Both the position numbers and the translations under genes were made by a program. A DNA stretch of 51,234 bases, taken from a virus. This document shows positions 3,272 through 49,509 of the stretch, piece after piece. The stretch spans positions 1-51,234 of IMG/VR virus record IMGVR_UViG_3300049433_000104. One strand, 5' to 3'. A model generated the notes under the pieces. It saw nothing but the letters and a program-made list of their open reading frames with translations, was not told the DNA's origin and made no database searches. Within the stretch, counting starts at the first letter, position 1. Every line of letters begins with the position of its first letter.

Positions 3272-3280
3272 CGCTCCCTA
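3272..3280. other. att-like 9-mer CGCTCCCTA at the outer edge of the AT-rich module
   Basis: CGCTCCCTA matches nine consecutive bases of the prophage core TGGCGCTCCCTAGG on the same strand. It lies in the 26-bp gap between the FAD gene stop (3255) and the Hsp70-like gene stop (3282), exactly at the change to lower-GC DNA. It could be a degraded attachment site left by an earlier island at the same tRNA-Glu. A 9-bp match can also occur by chance. Confidence 0.35.
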
Positions 3281-3281
3281 A

Positions 3282-5063
3282 TCAAATTCCGCGAACCGGG
3301 TACCGTTCCAAAACACGTTTTCCCTGTTGCACATGAGGTGTAACAGGAGCCCCAAGATCTTTTTTTTCGTTAGGAAGTTGAGGCGCGCAACCACCAATCG
3401 CGACGGCGCACTGCGAAAATTCGCGCGCGGTCATTTCTGCGAGATCACGCGGAAGGGCGTTGATCCACTGTGGCAGATCGTTGATCCGTTCAAAATTAAA
3501 ATTGACGCCCCGAACAGTTGAAACGCCTTTAGCAAGATCTGCAATTATTGGAAGCTTCGACGAACCGCCGGTAAGAAGCACATGTATTGGTACAGGGCGG
3601 CCTAACGCTCTTGTTGCATTCCGATATTCGTTAACATTTTCTTCGGTTAGCGCTGCTGCTAAAAGCTCATCACGCTGAGTTCGGAGGTCTTTACCCAACT
3701 CTTGATAGGATGCTTCTGCGATAACCTCTTCGAGAGTTAAAAGGCCGGATGCGCCAGGCCGCAGCGAAATTGCAACTGTTCCCTCGGTGAATAGTTGTCG
3801 CTTTAAGCCTCGAATTTGAGAATCCAAATCTGCCTTGATAATTGCAAAGTCCTCGGCATTCCATGGGCTGCCATTCTCTGGCTGTACGTTACAGGCTCGG
3901 AGCATTATCGGCCGAAGCGCATGATCAAAGCGATTTCCGGCGACTCGCGACATTCTCACTGCCGATGAAATAAGCGCCAGAGACGAAGTTTCAGTCTTGC
4001 GGTCGTAAAAACTTTGAAACAGCGCAAAATCCGTTGTGCCGGCTCCCGCGTCAATAACCAGCATTAACTGTCTCGCCTGCGGTGACACCGACGTGTCCAG
4101 AAAGTCTTCGAACTGCGTTGCGCCTGCAGCGACTGGCTCGCGAATAGACGCGTGAAGAGCTAGTATCGGCTCTAACTTAGAGACATCTTGTTTTTTCACA
4201 GCATCTAATACGGATTTGGCGCGGTGTGTCGTTAAGGTCGCCCACTCCTCGCTTAACGTATCAGCGACTATTTGTGCTTGTAGAAGCGCCTTTGCCAAAA
4301 CCCCCTGTGCCCATTTTGCGCGTTGCGCACTAGGAACGTCATCCACAGAATGTTCAAAGCACGGTATCGCGTATCTCCGCACGGCAGACCGTAAATCGGA
4401 ATATTTCGTAACGAGCTCTAGTGCATCAGCTTGCGCAGCAGCCGTCAGGGCTTTCAAGGCGAGATCTGTCAACCAAGCTAGATAGAGTACAAGTAAATCT
4501 CCCTTCGTAAGTCCTGAACCCGTAGGATCAATTCCATCGGTCAACGGAATCTCGGAAATATTGAGATTGGGCGCAACCTCGCTCAGTAGACGTTTGATGT
4601 TGTCAAATCTGTATCTACCTGTATGAATTTCAGCTTCCTGTTGGCGTTCTGCCGCATTGCCAAAAAAAATGGTGCCAACTTTAGTAATAAAAATCGAAGA
4701 CGGCACAGCAAGAACGGACTGACCATCTGCTTGTTTACCAAGGACTAGCGGCAAGGTTGCGATAGAGCTGGACATACAAGCCCAAGCTTTTGACATCGCC
4801 GTCCCAAAATCTAAACATATCCGCAAGGCCTCTTCCGGGATTGGTGAGCGTGTTAAGGCTGCTAAATTCAATTTGGCATCAACGACTATTGGCGCGGTCT
4901 GCCGAATCTCCGCTTCAATTGTAACCCCAGCAAGCTCGCGGAATGCCTCGACTTCATCCTTGGACAGAGTGCTTCCAGGAATTTGAAAGTAATCGCCTTC
5001 CTTGTGCAATCTATTTAGGAAGCTAGACACCAATGCTCGTGCAATTGCCTTATCCAAGATCAA
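3282..5063 (-). CDS. Hsp70/actin-fold ATPase without a recognisable substrate-binding domain
   Basis: A 593-residue protein carrying the three ATP-binding signatures of the actin/Hsp70 fold: phosphate-1 LDFGTAMSKA (84-93), phosphate-2 VIDAGAGTTDFALF (336-349) and adenosine LLTGGSSKLP (496-505). VPSSIFI and an RFDNIKRLL segment lie where DnaK has its VPS and KRLIGR regions. An N-terminal extension of about 75 residues precedes phosphate-1. Only some 80 residues follow the adenosine loop, so the DnaK peptide-binding and lid domains are absent. Base composition is clearly more AT-rich than the neighbours, suggesting transfer. The gene is 12 bp downstream of a helical protein with a GrpE-like end, so the two probably form one chaperone-like or switch-like ATPase module. 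A defence role is possible but is inference only. Confidence 0.78.
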   Translation of the reverse strand: MILDKAIARALVSSFLNRLHKEGDYFQIPGSTLSKDEVEAFRELAGVTIEAEIRQTAPIVVDAKLNLAALTRSPIPEEALRICLDFGTAMSKAWACMSSSIATLPLVLGKQADGQSVLAVPSSIFITKVGTIFFGNAAERQQEAEIHTGRYRFDNIKRLLSEVAPNLNISEIPLTDGIDPTGSGLTKGDLLVLYLAWLTDLALKALTAAAQADALELVTKYSDLRSAVRRYAIPCFEHSVDDVPSAQRAKWAQGVLAKALLQAQIVADTLSEEWATLTTHRAKSVLDAVKKQDVSKLEPILALHASIREPVAAGATQFEDFLDTSVSPQARQLMLVIDAGAGTTDFALFQSFYDRKTETSSLALISSAVRMSRVAGNRFDHALRPIMLRACNVQPENGSPWNAEDFAIIKADLDSQIRGLKRQLFTEGTVAISLRPGASGLLTLEEVIAEASYQELGKDLRTQRDELLAAALTEENVNEYRNATRALGRPVPIHVLLTGGSSKLPIIADLAKGVSTVRGVNFNFERINDLPQWINALPRDLAEMTAREFSQCAVAIGGCAPQLPNEKKDLGAPVTPHVQQGKRVLERYPVRGI

Positions 5064-5075
5064 TCTCCCACTGGA

Positions 5076-6488
5076 CTAATTTGCAGATGCCAAGCCCTTT
5101 AGAATAACATCTGATCCGCCATCATGTCGGCGACGCACGATCGGCTGACGCACAATTTTTACGGACCGCTCTTTAGGAAAATCCCCTGACGGGAGATCGT
5201 AGACATTTGGCGAATATTCGACGATGTCACCAACGCTTCCGATGGCGGCTAATCCGTGCTGCGACGCAATAGCTCGAACCGCCCGTTGCAGCGAGTCATT
5301 GTTTACATTCTCACGATTGTCCAGTGATAAACGAAACATTTCAGCTAGTTGGCGCACGAATGATTCCGCACCGACAGCAGAAAGAGCGGAGGACGACCTT
5401 TGTTTGCTTGTTCCACGTTCCATTCCGCGAATCCAATCCTGGATTTCTCCTGATAACCCAGCTTCGCTACTGACTATCTCCGTTATTCGATTTTTGTACT
5501 GTTCTTCATTATTTATTGCTTGTTTAAGTCTCTGCAGAAGTACTTCTGATCGTTGGCCGCCTCGCGCACGAAATACTAAGCCGGCGGTCAACTTATCAAT
5601 GATCGGTCCTAGAGCTGCATTTATAATCTCGGGGAAAGATCGCGGCGACCACCACCGATTTATGACTTGGACCAAATCATAAAGTTCAGGTTCGTCCATT
5701 ATGGTCAAACGGACGGCAAGAATTTCATCCAACAACTCAATCGCCGCCTTTGCCGTCAAGTCTAGTCCTTTCGGACGATTTTGCTTAGGTCCGAGGGAGA
5801 TCATCATACGGATAAGTTTTGCCAGTAATTGCCCGGATACAGGAGTGACAGTTAACTTCGAGCGTTTTGTTCGAATCCCCTCAACAAGAGCATCGCATAT
5901 ATCCTTCAGCCGTCCGGCGGCGGCTTCAAGATCTCGTGCAGCGACGTCCTGCAACCCGGGCTCATTAAGCAAACGCTCGATCCATTTATCAATTGACGGC
6001 TCTTGATGTGCAATCTCGCGGGCTAACGCCAATCGACAGCGCTGCGAACGCTCTTCGTCGCCGAGAGCCCTGAAGACGTAAGGTGACAACCATGGGCCGG
6101 TCGCGTCTTTAAGTGCCTCCGCAATATTTTCGCGAACCTCAGCCGGTTTGGCGCTGCCTGGAAGAGATTTTTTATCAGAAATCGTGGATAGCGCAGGTAA
6201 CGGCAGTGAAAGAGAGGCTCGCCTAACCTCGGACGCCATTGCTTGCACCCGCTTATTGTTCTTCATTGAAGCGGGAAGTCGAACGAGAAGGTCAATTGCA
6301 ACTAGCCTACTGGTATCATCTCCAGATCGTGCGATATGGCCTAAGCCCTCTAATCCTTGCTGTAGCCAAGAATAGAATGATTCACCGTTAGGCTTGGCCT
6401 TCGAACTCATCATTTGACGAGCCGAGGACCATTTTTCTTCTAGAAGAGTTGCTTCTGCGAAAGCACGGACTTGTTCGAGTGGATCCAT
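5076..6488 (-). CDS. Helical partner protein with GrpE-like C-terminal domain
   Basis: A 470-residue, charged, predicted largely alpha-helical protein with no signal peptide or membrane segment. The last 54 residues (417-470) change character: GSVGDIVEYSPNVYDLPSG, then SVKIVRQPIV, then VILKGLA. This pattern resembles the small beta-domain of GrpE, the Hsp70 nucleotide-exchange factor, whose C-terminus reads roughly G-VG-VV-FDP--H----G-----V-IVRPGV. GrpE itself is much shorter, so the helical N-terminal 400 residues would be a fused scaffold or sensor. It is the first gene of a two-gene AT-rich operon with the Hsp70-like ATPase 12 bp downstream. The exchange-factor reading is inferred from this pairing and the C-terminal pattern; no family is recognised for the rest. 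Confidence 0.62.
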   Translation of the reverse strand: MDPLEQVRAFAEATLLEEKWSSARQMMSSKAKPNGESFYSWLQQGLEGLGHIARSGDDTSRLVAIDLLVRLPASMKNNKRVQAMASEVRRASLSLPLPALSTISDKKSLPGSAKPAEVRENIAEALKDATGPWLSPYVFRALGDEERSQRCRLALAREIAHQEPSIDKWIERLLNEPGLQDVAARDLEAAAGRLKDICDALVEGIRTKRSKLTVTPVSGQLLAKLIRMMISLGPKQNRPKGLDLTAKAAIELLDEILAVRLTIMDEPELYDLVQVINRWWSPRSFPEIINAALGPIIDKLTAGLVFRARGGQRSEVLLQRLKQAINNEEQYKNRITEIVSSEAGLSGEIQDWIRGMERGTSKQRSSSALSAVGAESFVRQLAEMFRLSLDNRENVNNDSLQRAVRAIASQHGLAAIGSVGDIVEYSPNVYDLPSGDFPKERSVKIVRQPIVRRRHDGGSDVILKGLASAN

Positions 6489-6587: not shown

Positions 6588-6601
6588 TGGCGCTCCCTAG
6601 G
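6588..6601. other. attL core
   Basis: TGGCGCTCCCTAGG, identical to the 3' end of tRNA-Glu (CCA complement, discriminator, acceptor strand and two T-stem bases). It is the distal copy of the att core. Its assignment to this phage, rather than an older island, is supported by arm-type repeats 72 bp inside. Confidence 0.8.
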
Positions 6602-6672: not shown

Positions 6673-6696
6673 TGTTGGACACTTTGTTGGACAGTT
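6673..6696 (+). other. Putative integrase arm-binding site at attL
   Basis: Two GTTGGACA octamers 12 bp apart. The 24-bp segment is repeated with one mismatch and in the same orientation at 49396-49419, 77 bp inside attR. Equal distance from both cores and identical spacing suggest recognition by the integrase N-terminal domain or an excisionase. Confidence 0.6.
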
Positions 6697-7220: not shown

Positions 7221-7670
7221 TTATTCGACACGGAAGTTCAGCGTTGGCGTCTTGATGCAGAACAGCCGCGGTAAGATTGTCTGCAACAAATTGCACTGGA
7301 AACACACGTCGCCTTGATAAGTTACCTCAGGCGGCAGCTTCATCGGCGGCAACATGAATGCGCGCGCCAAGTGCGTATCGCCCTTGCTAACGGTCATGGC
7401 GGCCGGCGTGGTGTCATACGTGATCAGCTTTTCGCCTGTCCGGGCGTCCCATAGGGTTCGCTGTAGCGTTCCGGGGCAAAGTCGCGAAGGCGGTTCGGCG
7501 AATTTCCAGTCGACGACCACCATTGAATGCTGTGGCGCGGGATCGGGCGAAACGAAACTAAGTTTCTGATCATAGGAATACGGCCGCTGCGTATCGAGCC
7601 ACATCACACCGAGCCACCCGCCGAACGCCATCATTGCGAGTATGAAAAGAGCGAAGCGCAAGTGTCTCAT
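7221..7670 (-). CDS. Membrane-anchored phage protein of unknown function
   Basis: A 149-residue product starting with one hydrophobic segment (RFALFILAMMAFGGWLGVMW) and then a soluble, probably periplasmic domain with four cysteines (RLCPG, VCFQCN, FCIK). It is the last gene of the late operon, overlapping the preceding stop by 4 bp (ATGA), next to holin and endolysin. Position suggests a lysis accessory or superinfection-exclusion protein. It is not a recognisable spanin: there is no lipobox and no coiled coil. Confidence 0.7.
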   Translation of the reverse strand: MRHLRFALFILAMMAFGGWLGVMWLDTQRPYSYDQKLSFVSPDPAPQHSMVVVDWKFAEPPSRLCPGTLQRTLWDARTGEKLITYDTTPAAMTVSKGDTHLARAFMLPPMKLPPEVTYQGDVCFQCNLLQTILPRLFCIKTPTLNFRVE

Positions 7671-8044
7671 TTGCTACCCGCAAAAAACATCTTTACCCTG
7701 TCCCATAAGATCAGGACGGTGGTCAGCCCGCCGACGATCGCGGCAATCCCCCAAAACAGATAGCGGCCGGTTGAGCGCAGCAGCAGATAAGCCTGCAGGC
7801 CCTGCACTTCCTCCTTTCGAAGATCTGCAAGGAACGCAAGCGTTTCTGGTTTTGCTTTGCTGAGAAAATCCTGCAGCGGCTTCTGCTCCGGACTTCCTAT
7901 CTTGCGCAGAATTTCAAGCCCGTCCGGGTTCATATCGCCGATGATGTCGGCCATCTCCAGCAGGTTTGCAAACCGCTGCGTCGTCATCATTTTTAGACGC
8001 CACTGAACGACAGCTTCTTCAGTCGCGAGGCCCTGATCCGGCAT
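7667..8044 (-). CDS. Tail-anchored membrane protein in lysis cassette
   Basis: 125 residues. The N-terminal 85 are soluble, helical and charged; a single C-terminal transmembrane segment (YLFWGIAAIVGGLTTVLILW) is followed by a short basic end (RVKMFFAGSK). That topology fits a tail-anchored inner-membrane protein. It lies between the 3TM-like holin and the anchored protein at 7221. An antiholin or holin-partner role is possible from position only. Confidence 0.7.
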   Translation of the reverse strand: MPDQGLATEEAVVQWRLKMMTTQRFANLLEMADIIGDMNPDGLEILRKIGSPEQKPLQDFLSKAKPETLAFLADLRKEEVQGLQAYLLLRSTGRYLFWGIAAIVGGLTTVLILWDRVKMFFAGSK

Positions 8045-8059
8045 TTTCGATTTCCGCCG

Positions 8060-8545
8060 TCAGTTCGTCCGTGCCTGCGCGATGGTGGCCTGCACTTTCG
8101 TGACCGTGTTCGCCTTGGCGCTCTTTTCGACAGGGCGAAGGCCGAAGATCGCCAGCGGAATGCCGAAGGCGAGATAGTCGAACGGGAACGGCAACGGCGT
8201 CATTGCGATTCCGACAAACTTCGCCACGCCGGGCAGCGTGGCCTGCAGGACGACGCAAAACCAATAGAACCAGGCGGGCGCGGCGTATGCCGGCCTGATC
8301 CATGACGTGCGCTTGTCCTGCCGGTCGGCAAGGTTCTGCGTCGCCTGCAATTCGGCAAACCGGGCATCCGTCTTGAAACCCTCAAGCGTGATATCCGTCG
8401 CGGCCTTTGTGTCCATGCCGTGCTGATCGGTCAGCGCCTTTTGCTTGGCGGCCCAGCCGTCCGCAAGCTTGCCGGTGATAGAGCCGACCGCGCCAATGGC
8501 GACGCTTGCGCCACTGCCCATCAGCCACGCGGTGAGCGCGCCCAT
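8060..8545 (-). CDS. 3TM-type phage holin
   Basis: 161 residues starting MGALTAWLMGSGASVAIGAV. The ATG (8543-8545) overlaps the upstream stop as TAATG, indicating coupled translation. There is an amphipathic glycine-rich N-terminus, then a helical linker (KLADGWAAKQKALTDQHG). Then come RPAYAAPAWFYWFCVVLQA and a second hydrophobic span ending LAFGIPLAIFGLRPVEK. The RP-aromatic span plus a G-R-EK ending is the usual pattern of 3TM-type holins, which form the membrane lesion releasing or activating the endolysin. A longer open frame to 8872 exists, but its upstream part is a shadow of the neighbouring gene. Confidence 0.7.
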   Translation of the reverse strand: MGALTAWLMGSGASVAIGAVGSITGKLADGWAAKQKALTDQHGMDTKAATDITLEGFKTDARFAELQATQNLADRQDKRTSWIRPAYAAPAWFYWFCVVLQATLPGVAKFVGIAMTPLPFPFDYLAFGIPLAIFGLRPVEKSAKANTVTKVQATIAQARTN

Positions 8546-9153
8546 TACCGCACCGCCCGCTTTTTCGCAGGCTTCCGCTTTGCGGCCTTGCGCTTCGCAG
8601 GCGCCCGCTGCTGGCGAGCACGCCGACGAGCGGGCACGGCGGGAACCGCAACAGCTGGCGAGGTGGCAGGATCGACAATCGCCGCAAGTGCCGGCGTCGG
8701 AGTAGAGCCGTCCACGTTGTTGCTTTCGCCCGCCACCTTGACGGCCAATGCCGGGTCGATCGTGCCCGGCGCGGTTGTGGTGTGGTTGCGCAGATAATCC
8801 GTCAACCGGCCAAGCCCGAGAAAGATCAGCGGCGAATACTGCGCGGGCGAGAGGATCGCGCCATCGGCCCATGGCAACGGAATCGCCGGCAGTATCCCGT
8901 TCAAATCAATCCCGCCGCCGCCAAGCCATTCACCGATCGCGTTGATGGCCGGCACGGCGACGCCCAAGCCGTCCAGGAGCCGCGACAGCATCTTGGTTCG
9001 GAGGCCCTTGAACAGCACCAGCACCTTTGTGCCGAACGGCGCGACCTGCAGCTCGGGAGCGTGCTGGAGATAGTCGCGCCAGCGGATATAGACGGGATGC
9101 AGAATCCAGAAGCCGACCAGGACGGCGGCGAGCAGAGCAATGAGATAGATCAT
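8545..9153 (-). CDS. Membrane protein with basic, alanine/lysine/arginine-rich tail
   Basis: 202 residues. One N-terminal transmembrane segment (MIYLIALLAAVLVGFWIL) leads into a domain containing GLRTKMLSRLLDGLG and a glycine/proline-rich stretch. The C-terminus is a histone-H1-like tail of Ala, Lys, Arg and Pro (about residues 170-202). It lies between the endolysin and the holin, and the endolysin carries a similar tail. Function is unknown; a role in lysis or envelope association is inferred from position. Confidence 0.75.
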   Translation of the reverse strand: MIYLIALLAAVLVGFWILHPVYIRWRDYLQHAPELQVAPFGTKVLVLFKGLRTKMLSRLLDGLGVAVPAINAIGEWLGGGGIDLNGILPAIPLPWADGAILSPAQYSPLIFLGLGRLTDYLRNHTTTAPGTIDPALAVKVAGESNNVDGSTPTPALAAIVDPATSPAVAVPAVPARRRARQQRAPAKRKAAKRKPAKKRAVR

Positions 9154-9183
9154 GGTTGCACCTTTGTGATGGGGGTTGACTGA

Positions 9184-10698
9184 TCAGGCTGCGCGGCGGT
9201 GCGCAGTTCGTTTCTTGACGGCCGCCCGGCGCGCTGCGGGCTTGCGTGGCGCGCTGCGTTTCGGGGGGATGGGTTTGGCGGCCGGTTTGCGGGCGCGCGC
9301 CAGTGGCGGCGGCAGGGGCGGCGGCAGGGGCGGCAAAGCCGCTGCCGGAATACTCGTCGCGGCGGCTGTCCGGCGCGCTTTCCACCACGGCCAGACGTAG
9401 CGCCATGCCACATAGGCGAGCACGGCCAGCAGCACGATGCCGCCGGCCAGCATCGACCATTGCATCAGGCTCCAACCCTGCTTGACGCCGTGGGTTACGG
9501 CGCCGCCACCGGCCGCAGCCACAGCGATCTTTGCGAGGTCAGCGCCGCCGCCCTTCGCGGCCGGCGTCTCAGCTGCGAACTTCTTCGCCTCAACAAGCGC
9601 CTTGTCCCATCGGTTGATCAGGCCCTGCCGCAGATTCGGCCGGCCGGGCGCCACCTGGTCCTCGTAATGTTCACGCGCGGCGCGCAGCTTGTCGAGCAGT
9701 TCACCGGGCACGGCCTTTGACAGCGCGTCGCGGGTTTCGCGACCGACCGAACCATCGACGCCGACGCCAAGCGCAATCTGGAGGATCTTCGCCGCCCCTC
9801 CCGGCCCACGGTTGAAAACGCAATCGCGCAGGTAAAATTCGACGCCCGCATTCGTTGTCCAGCCTGCCGCCGCGTCCGTATACTTGACCATGTATTCGAC
9901 GGCCGAAGCTTCCGCTTCCGCGAACTGGCCGGCTTGAATGAGGGATCGAAGGTGTGACGCCTGCTCGGGGTGATATCGGTCGTTGATTCCGGCGACTTCA
10001 TAGGAGCCGCCACCGTCATTGGCCGGAAGCTTGTAAACCGCGAGCCTGCCCTGCGCGTCGCGCCGCGCCTCGAATGATAGGATCACGCGGCCCATGCGGG
10101 TCCGCCGATCGGTGGTATCGATCGGCTTTGCTGTCACCGTTGCGGCTACCGGCACGGCTTCCACCGGTGCCGCTCCGAAGATTGGCGGCATTGACTGCGG
10201 CTTGCGGCCGCCGTTGTCGACAAATTCGAAATGCATCCAGTCCGGACGGTTGACGTACCAGCCGCCCCACATGGCACCCTGCCGGCAGAACGCGTCCACG
10301 ATGAACGCCGGCATTGTCCCCTTTTTTACGCCAAGGGCATTGTTCAGCGCGTTCAGGTCGATCGCCGCAGCATATGCATGGTTCGACCATTTCATGGTAG
10401 ATCCCCGCACGTAACGAGAGTTATAAGCGCCGAAATATTTTGATGCGCCGGAAGCGTCGACTTTGGCTTGGTCGCGTCCGCAATAATCCCAAATCTCATT
10501 GAGCGCGGCGAGCAGCGCGGGCGCGCATTTGCGATGAAACAGAATCGATTTGATGACTTTTGTTCCGTGCTCGTCGGTATAGGTCATGCGAAATGGCGGC
10601 ACCACCGGCACCATTTGCGCTGTGATCTGGCCTTTGCCCGGATCGCCGTAAAAGGCGTTCCGAGACTCCTGATTGTCTTTCGGCCACGTCGTCGGCAT
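9184..10698 (-). CDS. Endolysin: M15 peptidase plus muramidase/peptidoglycan-binding-like region, membrane-tethered
   Basis: 504 residues, long for an endolysin. Residues 20-160 form a VanY/M15-type peptidase with Arg98, SNHAYAAAIDLN (zinc ligands His107 and Asp114) and WMHFEF (His156), which cuts peptide stems. Residues 205-330 resemble a GH108-type muramidase end with its binding helices: a possible catalytic Glu210 in ILSFEA, then FNRGPGGAAKILQ and VDGSVGRETRDAL. A single transmembrane helix lies at about 413-436, followed by a proline-rich stretch (PPLPPPLPPPL) and a basic tail of KPAAK-type repeats. The topology suggests a wall enzyme held at the inner membrane until holin action. The peptidase call is firm; the muramidase call is tentative. 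Confidence 0.8.
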   Translation of the reverse strand: MPTTWPKDNQESRNAFYGDPGKGQITAQMVPVVPPFRMTYTDEHGTKVIKSILFHRKCAPALLAALNEIWDYCGRDQAKVDASGASKYFGAYNSRYVRGSTMKWSNHAYAAAIDLNALNNALGVKKGTMPAFIVDAFCRQGAMWGGWYVNRPDWMHFEFVDNGGRKPQSMPPIFGAAPVEAVPVAATVTAKPIDTTDRRTRMGRVILSFEARRDAQGRLAVYKLPANDGGGSYEVAGINDRYHPEQASHLRSLIQAGQFAEAEASAVEYMVKYTDAAAGWTTNAGVEFYLRDCVFNRGPGGAAKILQIALGVGVDGSVGRETRDALSKAVPGELLDKLRAAREHYEDQVAPGRPNLRQGLINRWDKALVEAKKFAAETPAAKGGGADLAKIAVAAAGGGAVTHGVKQGWSLMQWSMLAGGIVLLAVLAYVAWRYVWPWWKARRTAAATSIPAAALPPLPPPLPPPLARARKPAAKPIPPKRSAPRKPAARRAAVKKRTAHRRAA

Positions 10699-41688: not shown

Positions 41689-42764
41689 GCCGCCTTCCCC
41701 GTAAATTCGAGTTCATCGCCCCAGCTGATCCAGCCTGGACGCGGCCGGCGCGCCTGCAGCTCGAGATACGGCCCTTCGGTAAGCCGCTCGATCCGCTCCA
41801 GTGCTTCGTCGGGTTTGCGGGAATGCTCCATCACCGGCGCGATGATCAGCTGCCGCACGTCGGCATAAAGCCGTTTCGGCTTGCCCTTGGTCGCCATCCA
41901 ACAATCTTCTGGATTAGCGCGCGTCCAGAAGCCCTGGCCCATGTGCCATCCTTCGCCGGAAGGATTTTGCTTCACCCATGTGAACGCAGTGGTCACATGT
42001 CGCAAACCGTAATGCGCCAAAAGATCGAGCGCATCCTGCGGACACCAGTCGACCATCCACATGTAAAAAGCCGCGTCGTCGTCCAGCAGTTCGCCGACAG
42101 GAAGGTTCTTTATTTTGGCCACCTCTTCCGTCTTGTAATGAATGTTGGCGCTTCGGCCGTCGCCGAGCGGCGAGCGCGTCAGAAACTTCCACTGCGGATC
42201 GGACGACGCAGACTTGGCGCGAAACCCGGACAGGGCGAGCCGCCCGAGATCTTCAACGGTGCCGCCGTTCATCGTGCGCGCGGCGTGATCGTCACGGCGC
42301 TGCTGCTGCTGAGCGAATTTTCCCGCCTGGTCGACCGGATCGACCACGATCGACTTGCCTGCGGCCATCTTCGTTCGCATGCCGGCGATCGCAGCTTCAA
42401 ACCCATCCGGCTGCATTGCCGCCGCCTGCTGCGCTTTCGCTGACAGCTTCCTATCGACGCCGATGTCTTTCAACGTGGCAGGCGGCAATCCGCCGATCGT
42501 TTCGACCAGTGTTTTAGGTCTGCCTTTACCATCCTGCAGCAGGCCGGAAGCCCTTGCTTCCTGCAGCAACTCGCCCAACCGACGTTCGACGCGCATCTGA
42601 AATTCCGTCGCATCGGCCAGCAAGGCGCGATCGCGTATCTGGCGCGCGTGCAACTTGACGTGCTCGATTTCATCGCGGCTGGCCAGGACGCGGTCGACTC
42701 GAGTCGCCTGCAGGGCTTCCCCGAGCGCCACCAGCGCGCGATCGTATTGCGCCAGCAACATCAT
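41685..42764 (-). CDS. MT-A70-family methyltransferase homologue with altered catalytic motif
   Basis: 359 residues from MMLLAQYDRALVALGEAL; ATG 42764 overlaps the upstream stop as ATGA, preferred over ATG 42791. The N-terminal 150 residues are a helical DUF3102/ParB-associated-like region (ARQIRDRALLADATEFQMRV). The MT-A70 domain follows: HYKTEEVAKIKNLPVGELLD, AFYMWMVDWCPQDAL, FTWVKQNPSGEGWHMG and IIAPVMEHSRKPDEALERIE. Where adenine methyltransferases have DPPW, this protein has SSDPQWKF (189-192). The second proline shapes the active site, so activity may be lost or changed. An active enzyme would make N6-methyladenine. Confidence 0.82.
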   Translation of the reverse strand: MMLLAQYDRALVALGEALQATRVDRVLASRDEIEHVKLHARQIRDRALLADATEFQMRVERRLGELLQEARASGLLQDGKGRPKTLVETIGGLPPATLKDIGVDRKLSAKAQQAAAMQPDGFEAAIAGMRTKMAAGKSIVVDPVDQAGKFAQQQQRRDDHAARTMNGGTVEDLGRLALSGFRAKSASSDPQWKFLTRSPLGDGRSANIHYKTEEVAKIKNLPVGELLDDDAAFYMWMVDWCPQDALDLLAHYGLRHVTTAFTWVKQNPSGEGWHMGQGFWTRANPEDCWMATKGKPKRLYADVRQLIIAPVMEHSRKPDEALERIERLTEGPYLELQARRPRPGWISWGDELEFTGKAA

Positions 42765-43408
42765 GCGGAGATTTCGCTGGTCTCTCGGCACCGCCGCGGC
42801 CGCCGGAAAATACCGTGAGCGGTTGCAATCGCGCTGACATCACCAGGCTCGATCAACCAGTCAACTGCGATTTCTACATAAGGCGTACCCTCGGCAACCG
42901 CTGCCAGAATCGACGCAACGCCGCTCTCATCCAATTCCAAACGCCGCATGAGATGCGTTAAATCTTTTCGATAGGCCTTCTTACGCTCCTTGTTCTCCGG
43001 ACGCTGAGCGTAGGCCTTCTTACGCTCCTTGTTCTCCGGACGCTGAGCGTAGGCCTTCTTACGCTCCTTGTTCTCCGGACGCTGAGCGTAGGCCTTCTGA
43101 CGCTCCTTGTTCTCCGGACGCTGAGCGTAGGCCTTCTGACGCTCCTTGTTCTCCGGACGCTGAGCGTAGGCCTTCTGACGCTCCTTGTTCTCCGCGTACC
43201 AACGCTGAGCGTAGGCCTTCTTACGCTCCTTGTTCTCCGGACGCTGAGCGTAGGCCTTCTGACGCTCCTTGTTCTCCGGACGCTGAGCGTAGGCCTTCTT
43301 ACGCTCCTTGTTCTCCGGACGCTGAGCGTAGGCCTTCTTACGCTCCTTGTTCTCCGCGTACCAACGCTGAGCGTAGGCCTTCTTACGCTCCTTGTCTTTA
43401 TACGGCAT
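42761..43408 (-). CDS. Tandem 13-residue repeat protein
   Basis: 215 residues from MPYKDKERKKAYAQRW, with GGGGGAG seven bases before ATG 43408. Residues 9-142 are ten in-frame copies of K/Q-KAYAQRPENKER; two copies carry WYAENKER in place of PENKER (15 residues). The repeats are charged and helix-prone with no cysteines. A non-repeat end follows: KDLTHLMRRLELDESGVASI and TPYVEIAVDWLIEPGD. The MPYKD-KE-KAY-R start occurs in short phage proteins near HNH genes, but here one unit has been amplified. Function is unknown; nucleic-acid or protein binding through the basic helix is a guess. Confidence 0.75.
   Translation of the reverse strand: MPYKDKERKKAYAQRWYAENKERKKAYAQRPENKERKKAYAQRPENKERQKAYAQRPENKERKKAYAQRWYAENKERQKAYAQRPENKERQKAYAQRPENKERQKAYAQRPENKERKKAYAQRPENKERKKAYAQRPENKERKKAYRKDLTHLMRRLELDESGVASILAAVAEGTPYVEIAVDWLIEPGDVSAIATAHGIFRRPRRCRETSEISA
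42983..43384. repeat. Ten tandem coding repeats (eight of 39 bp, two of 45 bp)
   Basis: On the + strand the unit begins TAGGCCTTCT and contains ACGCTCCTTGTTCTC. Starts at 42972, 43011, 43050, 43089, 43128 and 43167 show the exact 39-bp period. Units are nearly identical at DNA level, differing mainly at one codon (Lys/Gln) and the two 6-bp insertions, which points to recent expansion by slippage or recombination. Confidence 0.95.
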
Positions 43409-43664
43409 GGCCACTCCCCCTGTTCTCTCGGATGAAGGCACAGGCGAGCTGATAGCCGGGGATGCTCAAGGCGAAGAACGGACCCTCGAGCGACGGCGCG
43501 TCACACGCCTGCCGGTACCAGACCTCGACGACGCCGCGGCGCCGCAGTTCTTTGACGTCGCCGCGCTGGCGCGCGGCGAGCGTTACGCGCCCGCTTGCGC
43601 CGGCACGTAAGAGCGCGATCTCGTAGCGGTTCAGACGACGGCGACGGGCGGAACCACCGTTCAC
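43398..43664 (-). CDS. Hypothetical basic early protein
   Basis: 88 residues, arginine-rich. YEIALLRAGASGRVTLAARQ and GDVKELRRRGVVEVWY suggest a small winged-helix-like fold, but no family can be named. Its start overlaps the Gp37/Gp68-type stop (ATGA) and its end overlaps the repeat-protein start by 11 bp. Confidence 0.6.
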   Translation of the reverse strand: MNGGSARRRRLNRYEIALLRAGASGRVTLAARQRGDVKELRRRGVVEVWYRQACDAPSLEGPFFALSIPGYQLACAFIRENRGSGHAV

Positions 43665-49395: not shown

Positions 49396-49419
49396 TGTTG
49401 GACAATTTGTTGGACAGTT
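49396..49419 (+). other. Putative integrase arm-binding site at attR
   Basis: Matches 6673-6696 at 23 of 24 bases in the same orientation: two GTTGGACA octamers 12 bp apart. It lies 77 bp from the attR core and just upstream of the integrase start. Confidence 0.6.
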
Positions 49420-49495: not shown

Positions 49496-49509
49496 TGGCG
49501 CTCCCTAGG
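49496..49509. other. attR core within tRNA-Glu 3' end
   Basis: TGGCGCTCCCTAGG, identical to attL at 6588-6601. It spans the CCA, discriminator, acceptor 3' strand and the edge of the T-stem, so integration leaves the tRNA intact. Confidence 0.85.

Follow-up and report, generated by a model that had tools for sequence, protein, structure and literature searches.

A two-gene Hsp70-type ATPase cassette of the candidate defence family PDC-M61 beside a prophage at a tRNA-Glu site

What could an Hsp70-like ATPase that leaves no room for a client be doing beside a prophage, and what is the large helical protein encoded next to it? The question is raised by two genes in IMG/VR virus record IMGVR_UViG_3300049433_000104, all 51,234 bases of which were analysed (the window) and which includes host DNA flanking the prophage on both sides. 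The initial annotation called the two genes uncharacterised and read them as a two-component ATPase switch, with a GrpE-like exchange factor fused to a helical sensor. We refer to the ATPase as M61B (B) and to its partner as M61A (A), since by profile matching the pair is already catalogued as PDC-M61, a phage-defence candidate (PDC), and the window encodes a divergent member. On balance, we think it probable that the two genes form a horizontally mobile accessory Hsp70-ATPase switch, carried as cargo at a tRNA-Glu attachment (att) site and probably serving in defence.

The ATPase and its database status

In PADLOC-DB 2.0, M61B matches the PDC-M61B model with E=4.1e-90 over profile positions 97-567 of 588. 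M61A matches four PDC-M61A models, including the best at E=1.3e-20 and others at 6.5e-13 and 5.1e-11. Searches of Pfam, PHROGs and NCBIfam gave weak Hsp70-like matches only for M61B and no informative family for M61A; a Methyltransf_19 match of M61A (Pfam, E=0.13) was taken as chance. As cited in PMC12988326 and PMC12255303, PDCs derive from guilt-by-embedding (Payne et al. 2024, bioRxiv 10.1101/2024.01.29.577857). "Uncharacterised" is still right for the function of PDC-M61, but not for its place in the databases.

M61B comprises an N-terminal helical extension of ~48 residues, a variable linker and a nucleotide-binding domain, with no substrate-binding domain. The best 60 matches of its family profile in the PDB are all Hsp70, DnaK, BiP or Hsc70 proteins (top E=2e-11), not ParM or FtsA. 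All Hsp70 catalytic and nucleotide motifs (Table 1) are invariant in 8/8 aligned homologues, which are 25-29% identical to M61B of the window; these include the three actin/Hsp70 ATP-binding motifs seen at the outset, which align to Hsp70 in the PDB profile search. By these motifs M61B belongs to the Hsp70-type ATPases, and none of the catalytic motifs is missing; because they are invariant despite such low identity, it likely hydrolyses ATP. Only ~30 residues follow the last conserved motif of the ATPase domain, and thus there is no room for a substrate-binding domain or lid, as had been noted. The TTG start of M61B agrees with the aligned N-termini of four homologues.

The family, the partner protein and their neighbourhoods

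Genome searches with the PADLOC model returned carriers in 0/40, 0/399, 4/348, 2/343, 2/140, 1/69, 0/318 and 0/149 genomes. The searches of 140 and 69 genomes re-find known carriers, and six distinct carrier genomes remain among about 1,800 genome searches. The pair is almost wholly absent from the family members of the carriers, and their sister species lack it; the PDC-M61 family is rare and patchy. No relatives were found by tblastn of B against phage and plasmid collections (at E=10 only true DnaKs and noise), by a distant DNA search of E. coli genomes, by single-protein scans of viral contigs and genome contigs, or by a motif scan. Alignment-based scans of IMG/VR gave one true relative pair, L124 (L125 and L126 are L124 again); matches to a phage DnaK and to an MreB-like protein were rejected as false leads. 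Separately, a 387-kb virus record (L098, IMGVR_UViG_3300028888_000044) has an Hsp70 chaperone set of its own: at 7509-10557 it encodes a full-length DnaK and, after it, a DnaJ-like protein.

Conserved pairing had been set beforehand as one of the tests that could refute a two-component system. An A-type protein lies directly upstream of B in all eight other loci (L091 to L097 and L124), so that the two genes are paired in 9/9 loci with the window, and the spacing between them is about -20 to +40 bp where the starts can be judged. Compared with the members in L096, L091 and L124, the window B is 27-29% and the window A 18-21% identical. The loci fall into two sub-clades. In the long one (window, L091, L096, L097 and L124), A has 470-491 residues and B carries the N-terminal helical extension. 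The short one comprises L092, L094 and L095; its partners have 239-263 residues and an N-terminal segment that looks winged-helix-like by eye. L093 is intermediate, with a 399-residue partner. The short pairs, at 8679-10888 in L092, 16344-18526 in L094 and 8323-10511 in L095, also have a shorter ATPase, and PADLOC recognises the ATPase alone.

Between nearly all locus pairs, A diverges faster than B. The C-terminal ~110 residues of A are common to both sub-clades and, in 80 genomes, are found clearly only beside B, which suggests that they are likely an ATPase-docking domain. When a profile of this domain was run against these genomes, it matched beside B in six carriers and once weakly elsewhere (E=0.003); the carrier sequences are in the domain model, and thus it is the lack of matches in the other genomes that carries information. 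In the PDB, an orotidine decarboxylase match of the same profile (E=0.17) was taken as chance. From this pattern we infer that B would be the conserved engine, on which A would dock with its C-terminal domain, and that the remainder of A would be a variable recognition or output part. AlphaFold2 models of M61A and of its C-terminus, built from a two-row alignment, have a mean predicted local distance difference test (pLDDT) score of 49 and 45, too low to judge as a result of the shallow alignment.

The neighbourhoods of the relatives support a link to defence. In L096 and the related L097, the pair lies inside an operon that reads HsdR-HsdM-HsdS-A-B-AAA_15 (NsnB-like) ATPase, and that of L096 is headed by an RtcR-type CARF regulator gene. 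L091 lies near genes for MzaB, a DEDDh nuclease and a NERD-helicase, L092 near PrimPol/TOTE-type, MkoC-like and GajB-like genes, and a TIR-domain protein follows the pair in L095. Embedding in or beside defence systems is thus evident in L096/L097 and plausible in L091, L092 and L095, so that the survey of neighbourhoods proposed at the start did turn up defence-type contexts; these are a handful of loci with no matched control, and the enrichment is an impression rather than a statistic. In L124, the second IMG/VR record with the pair, genes for a serine recombinase, an integrase and a Mutator transposase are found next to the pair, whose GC is 53% versus 60% around it. Right after M61AB in L096 (12750-15601) and L097 (6052-8942) there are genes encoding a conserved AAA_15/AbiEii-like ATPase of 657-662 residues and a ~295-residue protein; in that lineage the two may be third and fourth components.

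The tRNA-Glu site and the two-gene island

Host rluD in the window is at most about 85% identical to that of Bradyrhizobium, and the terminase is 72% identical to that of Bradyrhizobium phage ppBeUSDA76-1. These identities place the host in the Nitrobacteraceae, near Bradyrhizobium. Paired TGTTGGACA repeats lie on the prophage side of attL, at 6673 and 6685 (6673-6693), and on the prophage side of attR, at 49396 and 49408 (49396-49416); they are probable integrase arm sites. Together with the 14-bp att repeat they delimit a prophage of about 6588-49509, which leaves the cassette (3282-6488) outside it. Within the prophage early region, at 42761-43441, is encoded a protein made mostly of tandem 'KERKKAYAQRPEN' repeats.

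Table 1. Features of the cassette and of the att site in the window
Feature	Position	Strand	Basis or remark
M61B, 593-residue Hsp70-type ATPase, TTG start	3282..5063	-	PADLOC PDC-M61B, E=4.1e-90; PDB profile matches; alignment of 8 homologues
M61B N-terminal helical extension	4920..5063	-	Alignments; in the long sub-clade (window, L091, L096, L097, L124), not in short-clade members
Phosphate-1 motif DFGTAMSK, B residues 85-92	4788..4811	-	Invariant DFGTxxSK; aligned to Hsp70 'DLGTTYS'
Lys157, counterpart of the Hsp70 catalytic Lys (K71 of Hsc70)	4593..4595	-	Invariant; aligned to 'IKRLIG' of Kar2
Connect motif REPVAAG (Glu309)	4122..4142	-	Invariant Glu; aligned to Hsp70 'NEPTAA'
Phosphate-2 motif DAGAGTTDF, residues 338-346	4026..4052	-	Invariant DxGxGTxD
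Adenosine-contact helix RGLKRQLF, residues 418-425	3789..3812	-	Invariant R..K..LF; aligned to Hsp70 'EKAKRALS'
Adenosine motif TGGSSKLP, residues 498-505	3549..3572	-	Invariant TGGxxxLP; aligned to Hsp70 'VGGSTRIP'
M61A, 470-residue mainly helical partner, 12 bp upstream of M61B	5076..6488	-	PADLOC PDC-M61A models; same-position partner in all loci
M61A C-terminal domain, ~108 residues (363-470)	5079..5402	-	Sole part common to partners of both sub-clades; GrpE-like by eye only
att-like 9-mer CGCTCCCTA, left edge of island	3272..3280	+	17 bp past FAD-dependent oxidoreductase stop; nine att-core bases
Prophage attL core TGGCGCTCCCTAGG, right edge of island	6588..6601	+	14-bp exact copy at 49496-49509
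Prophage attR core, 3' end of tRNA-Glu	49496..49509	+	Same 14 bp TGGCGCTCCCTAGG

The initial annotation of the island stands: the open reading frames of 593 and 470 residues, their coordinates, common strand and 12-bp gap are as it gave them, and the genes lie between the att-like 9-mer and attL and are AT-richer than their surroundings. Their GC contents, 49.5% and 49.8%, are the lowest in the window, and GC at third codon positions is 0.44 and 0.45, whereas the other host and phage genes measured have 0.69-0.78. Both are real genes, with a foreign base composition. A sigma-70-like promoter was looked for in the cassette region and none was found, which carries little weight. The order from tRNA-Glu to rluD is kept in Bradyrhizobium relatives, but there no FAD-oxidoreductase follows. 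We read the two sets of att bases as one tRNA-Glu site that may have been used twice in succession, with the two-gene cassette left between.

How the pair may work, alternatives and known systems

A defence module is suggested by the PADLOC matches, the intact Hsp70 motifs, the pairing, the defence contexts, the patchy carriage, the foreign composition and the att-bounded position. In such a module, A would dock on the ATPase of B by way of the conserved C-terminal domain, and the helical part of A, which diverges fast, would act as a sensor or scaffold. As B binds ATP, hydrolyses it and exchanges the nucleotide, A could toggle between two states, held and released, and a signal from a foreign element sensed by A would tip the cycle. 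The output may be restriction of the invader, or the arming of an effector encoded nearby, for instance the type I restriction system or the ATPase that adjoins the pair in relatives. Several points weigh against a role in defence. The cassette of the window is not embedded in another defence operon and no restriction or effector gene adjoins it, and L093 and L094 have no obvious defence neighbours. Our search of the literature found no mention of PDC-M61 and no anti-phage assay of it, and another PADLOC candidate that was assayed experimentally, PDC-M63AB, was without activity (PMC12409345). The structure models are of low confidence (pLDDT 49 and 45), and the contact between A and B is one that we infer. 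If the pair does defend against phages, Hsp70-type ATPases, normally folding engines, would also serve as immune switches, working with a dedicated partner and lacking a client-binding domain. This would give a biochemical hypothesis to a candidate defence family that so far is only a database entry, for which the putative docking domain (A residues 363-470) and the ATPase residues are now defined as mutation targets.

A more specific proposal is that A has at its C-terminus a true GrpE-type exchange domain, fused to a sensor and driving ADP release from B. The end of the window M61A, QHGLAAIGSVGDIVEYSPNVYD, resembles by eye the GrpE consensus KHGIGKFDPLGEKFDPNFHQ. The string HGL...GD..YSPN.. 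is present there, and the motif order HG-L...G-(D/E)..(F/Y)-(D/S)-P-N/V..(H/Y) fits the consensus 'KHGI..DPLGEKFDPNFHQ'. The hhalign match of the domain to GrpE falls in this register and outscores 150 column-shuffled GrpE profiles, but its P is about 0.05-0.16 and a reversed-GrpE control scores almost equally. In a ranking by the domain hidden Markov model (HMM), canonical GrpEs show some enrichment towards the top, whereas a GrpE HMM does not place the partners above unrelated open reading frames. A Pfam scan of M61A gave no significant GrpE match, and no GrpE is among the PDB matches of the domain profile. The same profile picked up no canonical GrpE in the 80 genomes, although canonical GrpEs were demonstrated in 20 of these, and the domain model (pLDDT 45) is too poor to judge. 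Of what stands opposite the Hsp70 ATPase, this domain alone is conserved, and among GAP1-N2 GTPase-centred conflict systems some encode Hsp70 with GrpE and an Hsp70 domain without the peptide-binding domain (PMC7159879). Tested five ways, GrpE homology is not supported, and the likeness of the last 54 residues to the GrpE beta-domain is motif-like and statistically unsupported. Of the switch first proposed, an Hsp70-type ATPase lacking the substrate-binding domain, its large helical partner, their pairing and the defence-type neighbourhoods hold, but no profile match supports an exchange factor of the GrpE type. We regard a GrpE-type domain that speeds nucleotide exchange as doubtful. It is unlikely, by a further step, that M61 is an immune switch made from an Hsp70 cycle without chaperone function, in which a variable sensor with a GrpE-derived exchange domain would control the ATPase and detection of an invader would lead to nucleotide exchange.

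The pair could instead be a regulator rather than a defence effector, with the Hsp70-type ATPase controlling a DNA-binding or scaffolding partner or, for example, how adjacent restriction genes are expressed or how active they are. The winged-helix-like segment of the short-clade partners, seen by eye, and the position of the L096/L097 pair within a restriction operon, with the RtcR-CARF gene at the head of that of L096, are consistent with this. However, two short-clade partners scanned in Pfam match no helix-turn-helix model, and the window A has neither such a segment nor a neighbouring system to control; regulation as the sole role thus seems rather improbable. We give still less credence to an accessory chaperone or stress module carried on mobile elements with no role in defence: the ATPase is of Hsp70 type and L093 and L094 lack defence neighbours, but there is no substrate-binding domain, defence neighbourhoods are strong at several loci, and the distribution is very sparse, unlike that of stress genes. 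It is very improbable that the pair is a filament or partition module of actin-like type (ParM/FtsA-like) with an adaptor, as the weak PHROG 'partition protein' match (E=0.012) and a weak MreB match for L124 (E=0.007) stand against the 60 best PDB matches, all Hsp70s, the Hsp70-like catalytic Lys and R..K adenosine helix, and a site where no replicon genes are seen.

How does the probable defence switch compare with known systems? ParM, FtsA and MreB are not the closest relatives of M61B, since the 60 best PDB matches of its family profile are Hsp70s. It has all the nucleotide-binding and catalytic motifs of the Hsp70/DnaK nucleotide-binding domain, in order, but it lacks the substrate-binding domain and lid and has an N-terminal extension and insertions relative to DnaK. 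With GrpE, M61A shares the short end motif and co-encoding with an Hsp70-type ATPase, but not a significant profile match, and its N-terminal region of ~360 residues is unrelated. The GAP1-N2 systems are reported mainly in actinobacteria and firmicutes (PMC7159879), and no GTPase (TRAFAC), FNIII or DnaJ-fusion genes were recognised here. CnuD of the CoCoNuT systems is Hsp70-like with nucleotide- and substrate-binding domains, degenerate Walker-A-like motifs and McrBC partners (PMC11090510). The likeness lies in an Hsp70-like ATPase, HEAT-like helical parts and restriction-associated loci (PMC11090510), whereas the motifs of M61B are intact and McrBC is not seen here: there are no McrB/McrC or TRAFAC GTPase genes beside the window pair, and none were recognised among the scanned neighbours of its relatives. 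The window pair is divergent from other PDC-M61 members and sits at a tRNA-Glu att site rather than inside a defence operon, but it matches both components of PDC-M61, in the same order and adjacency.

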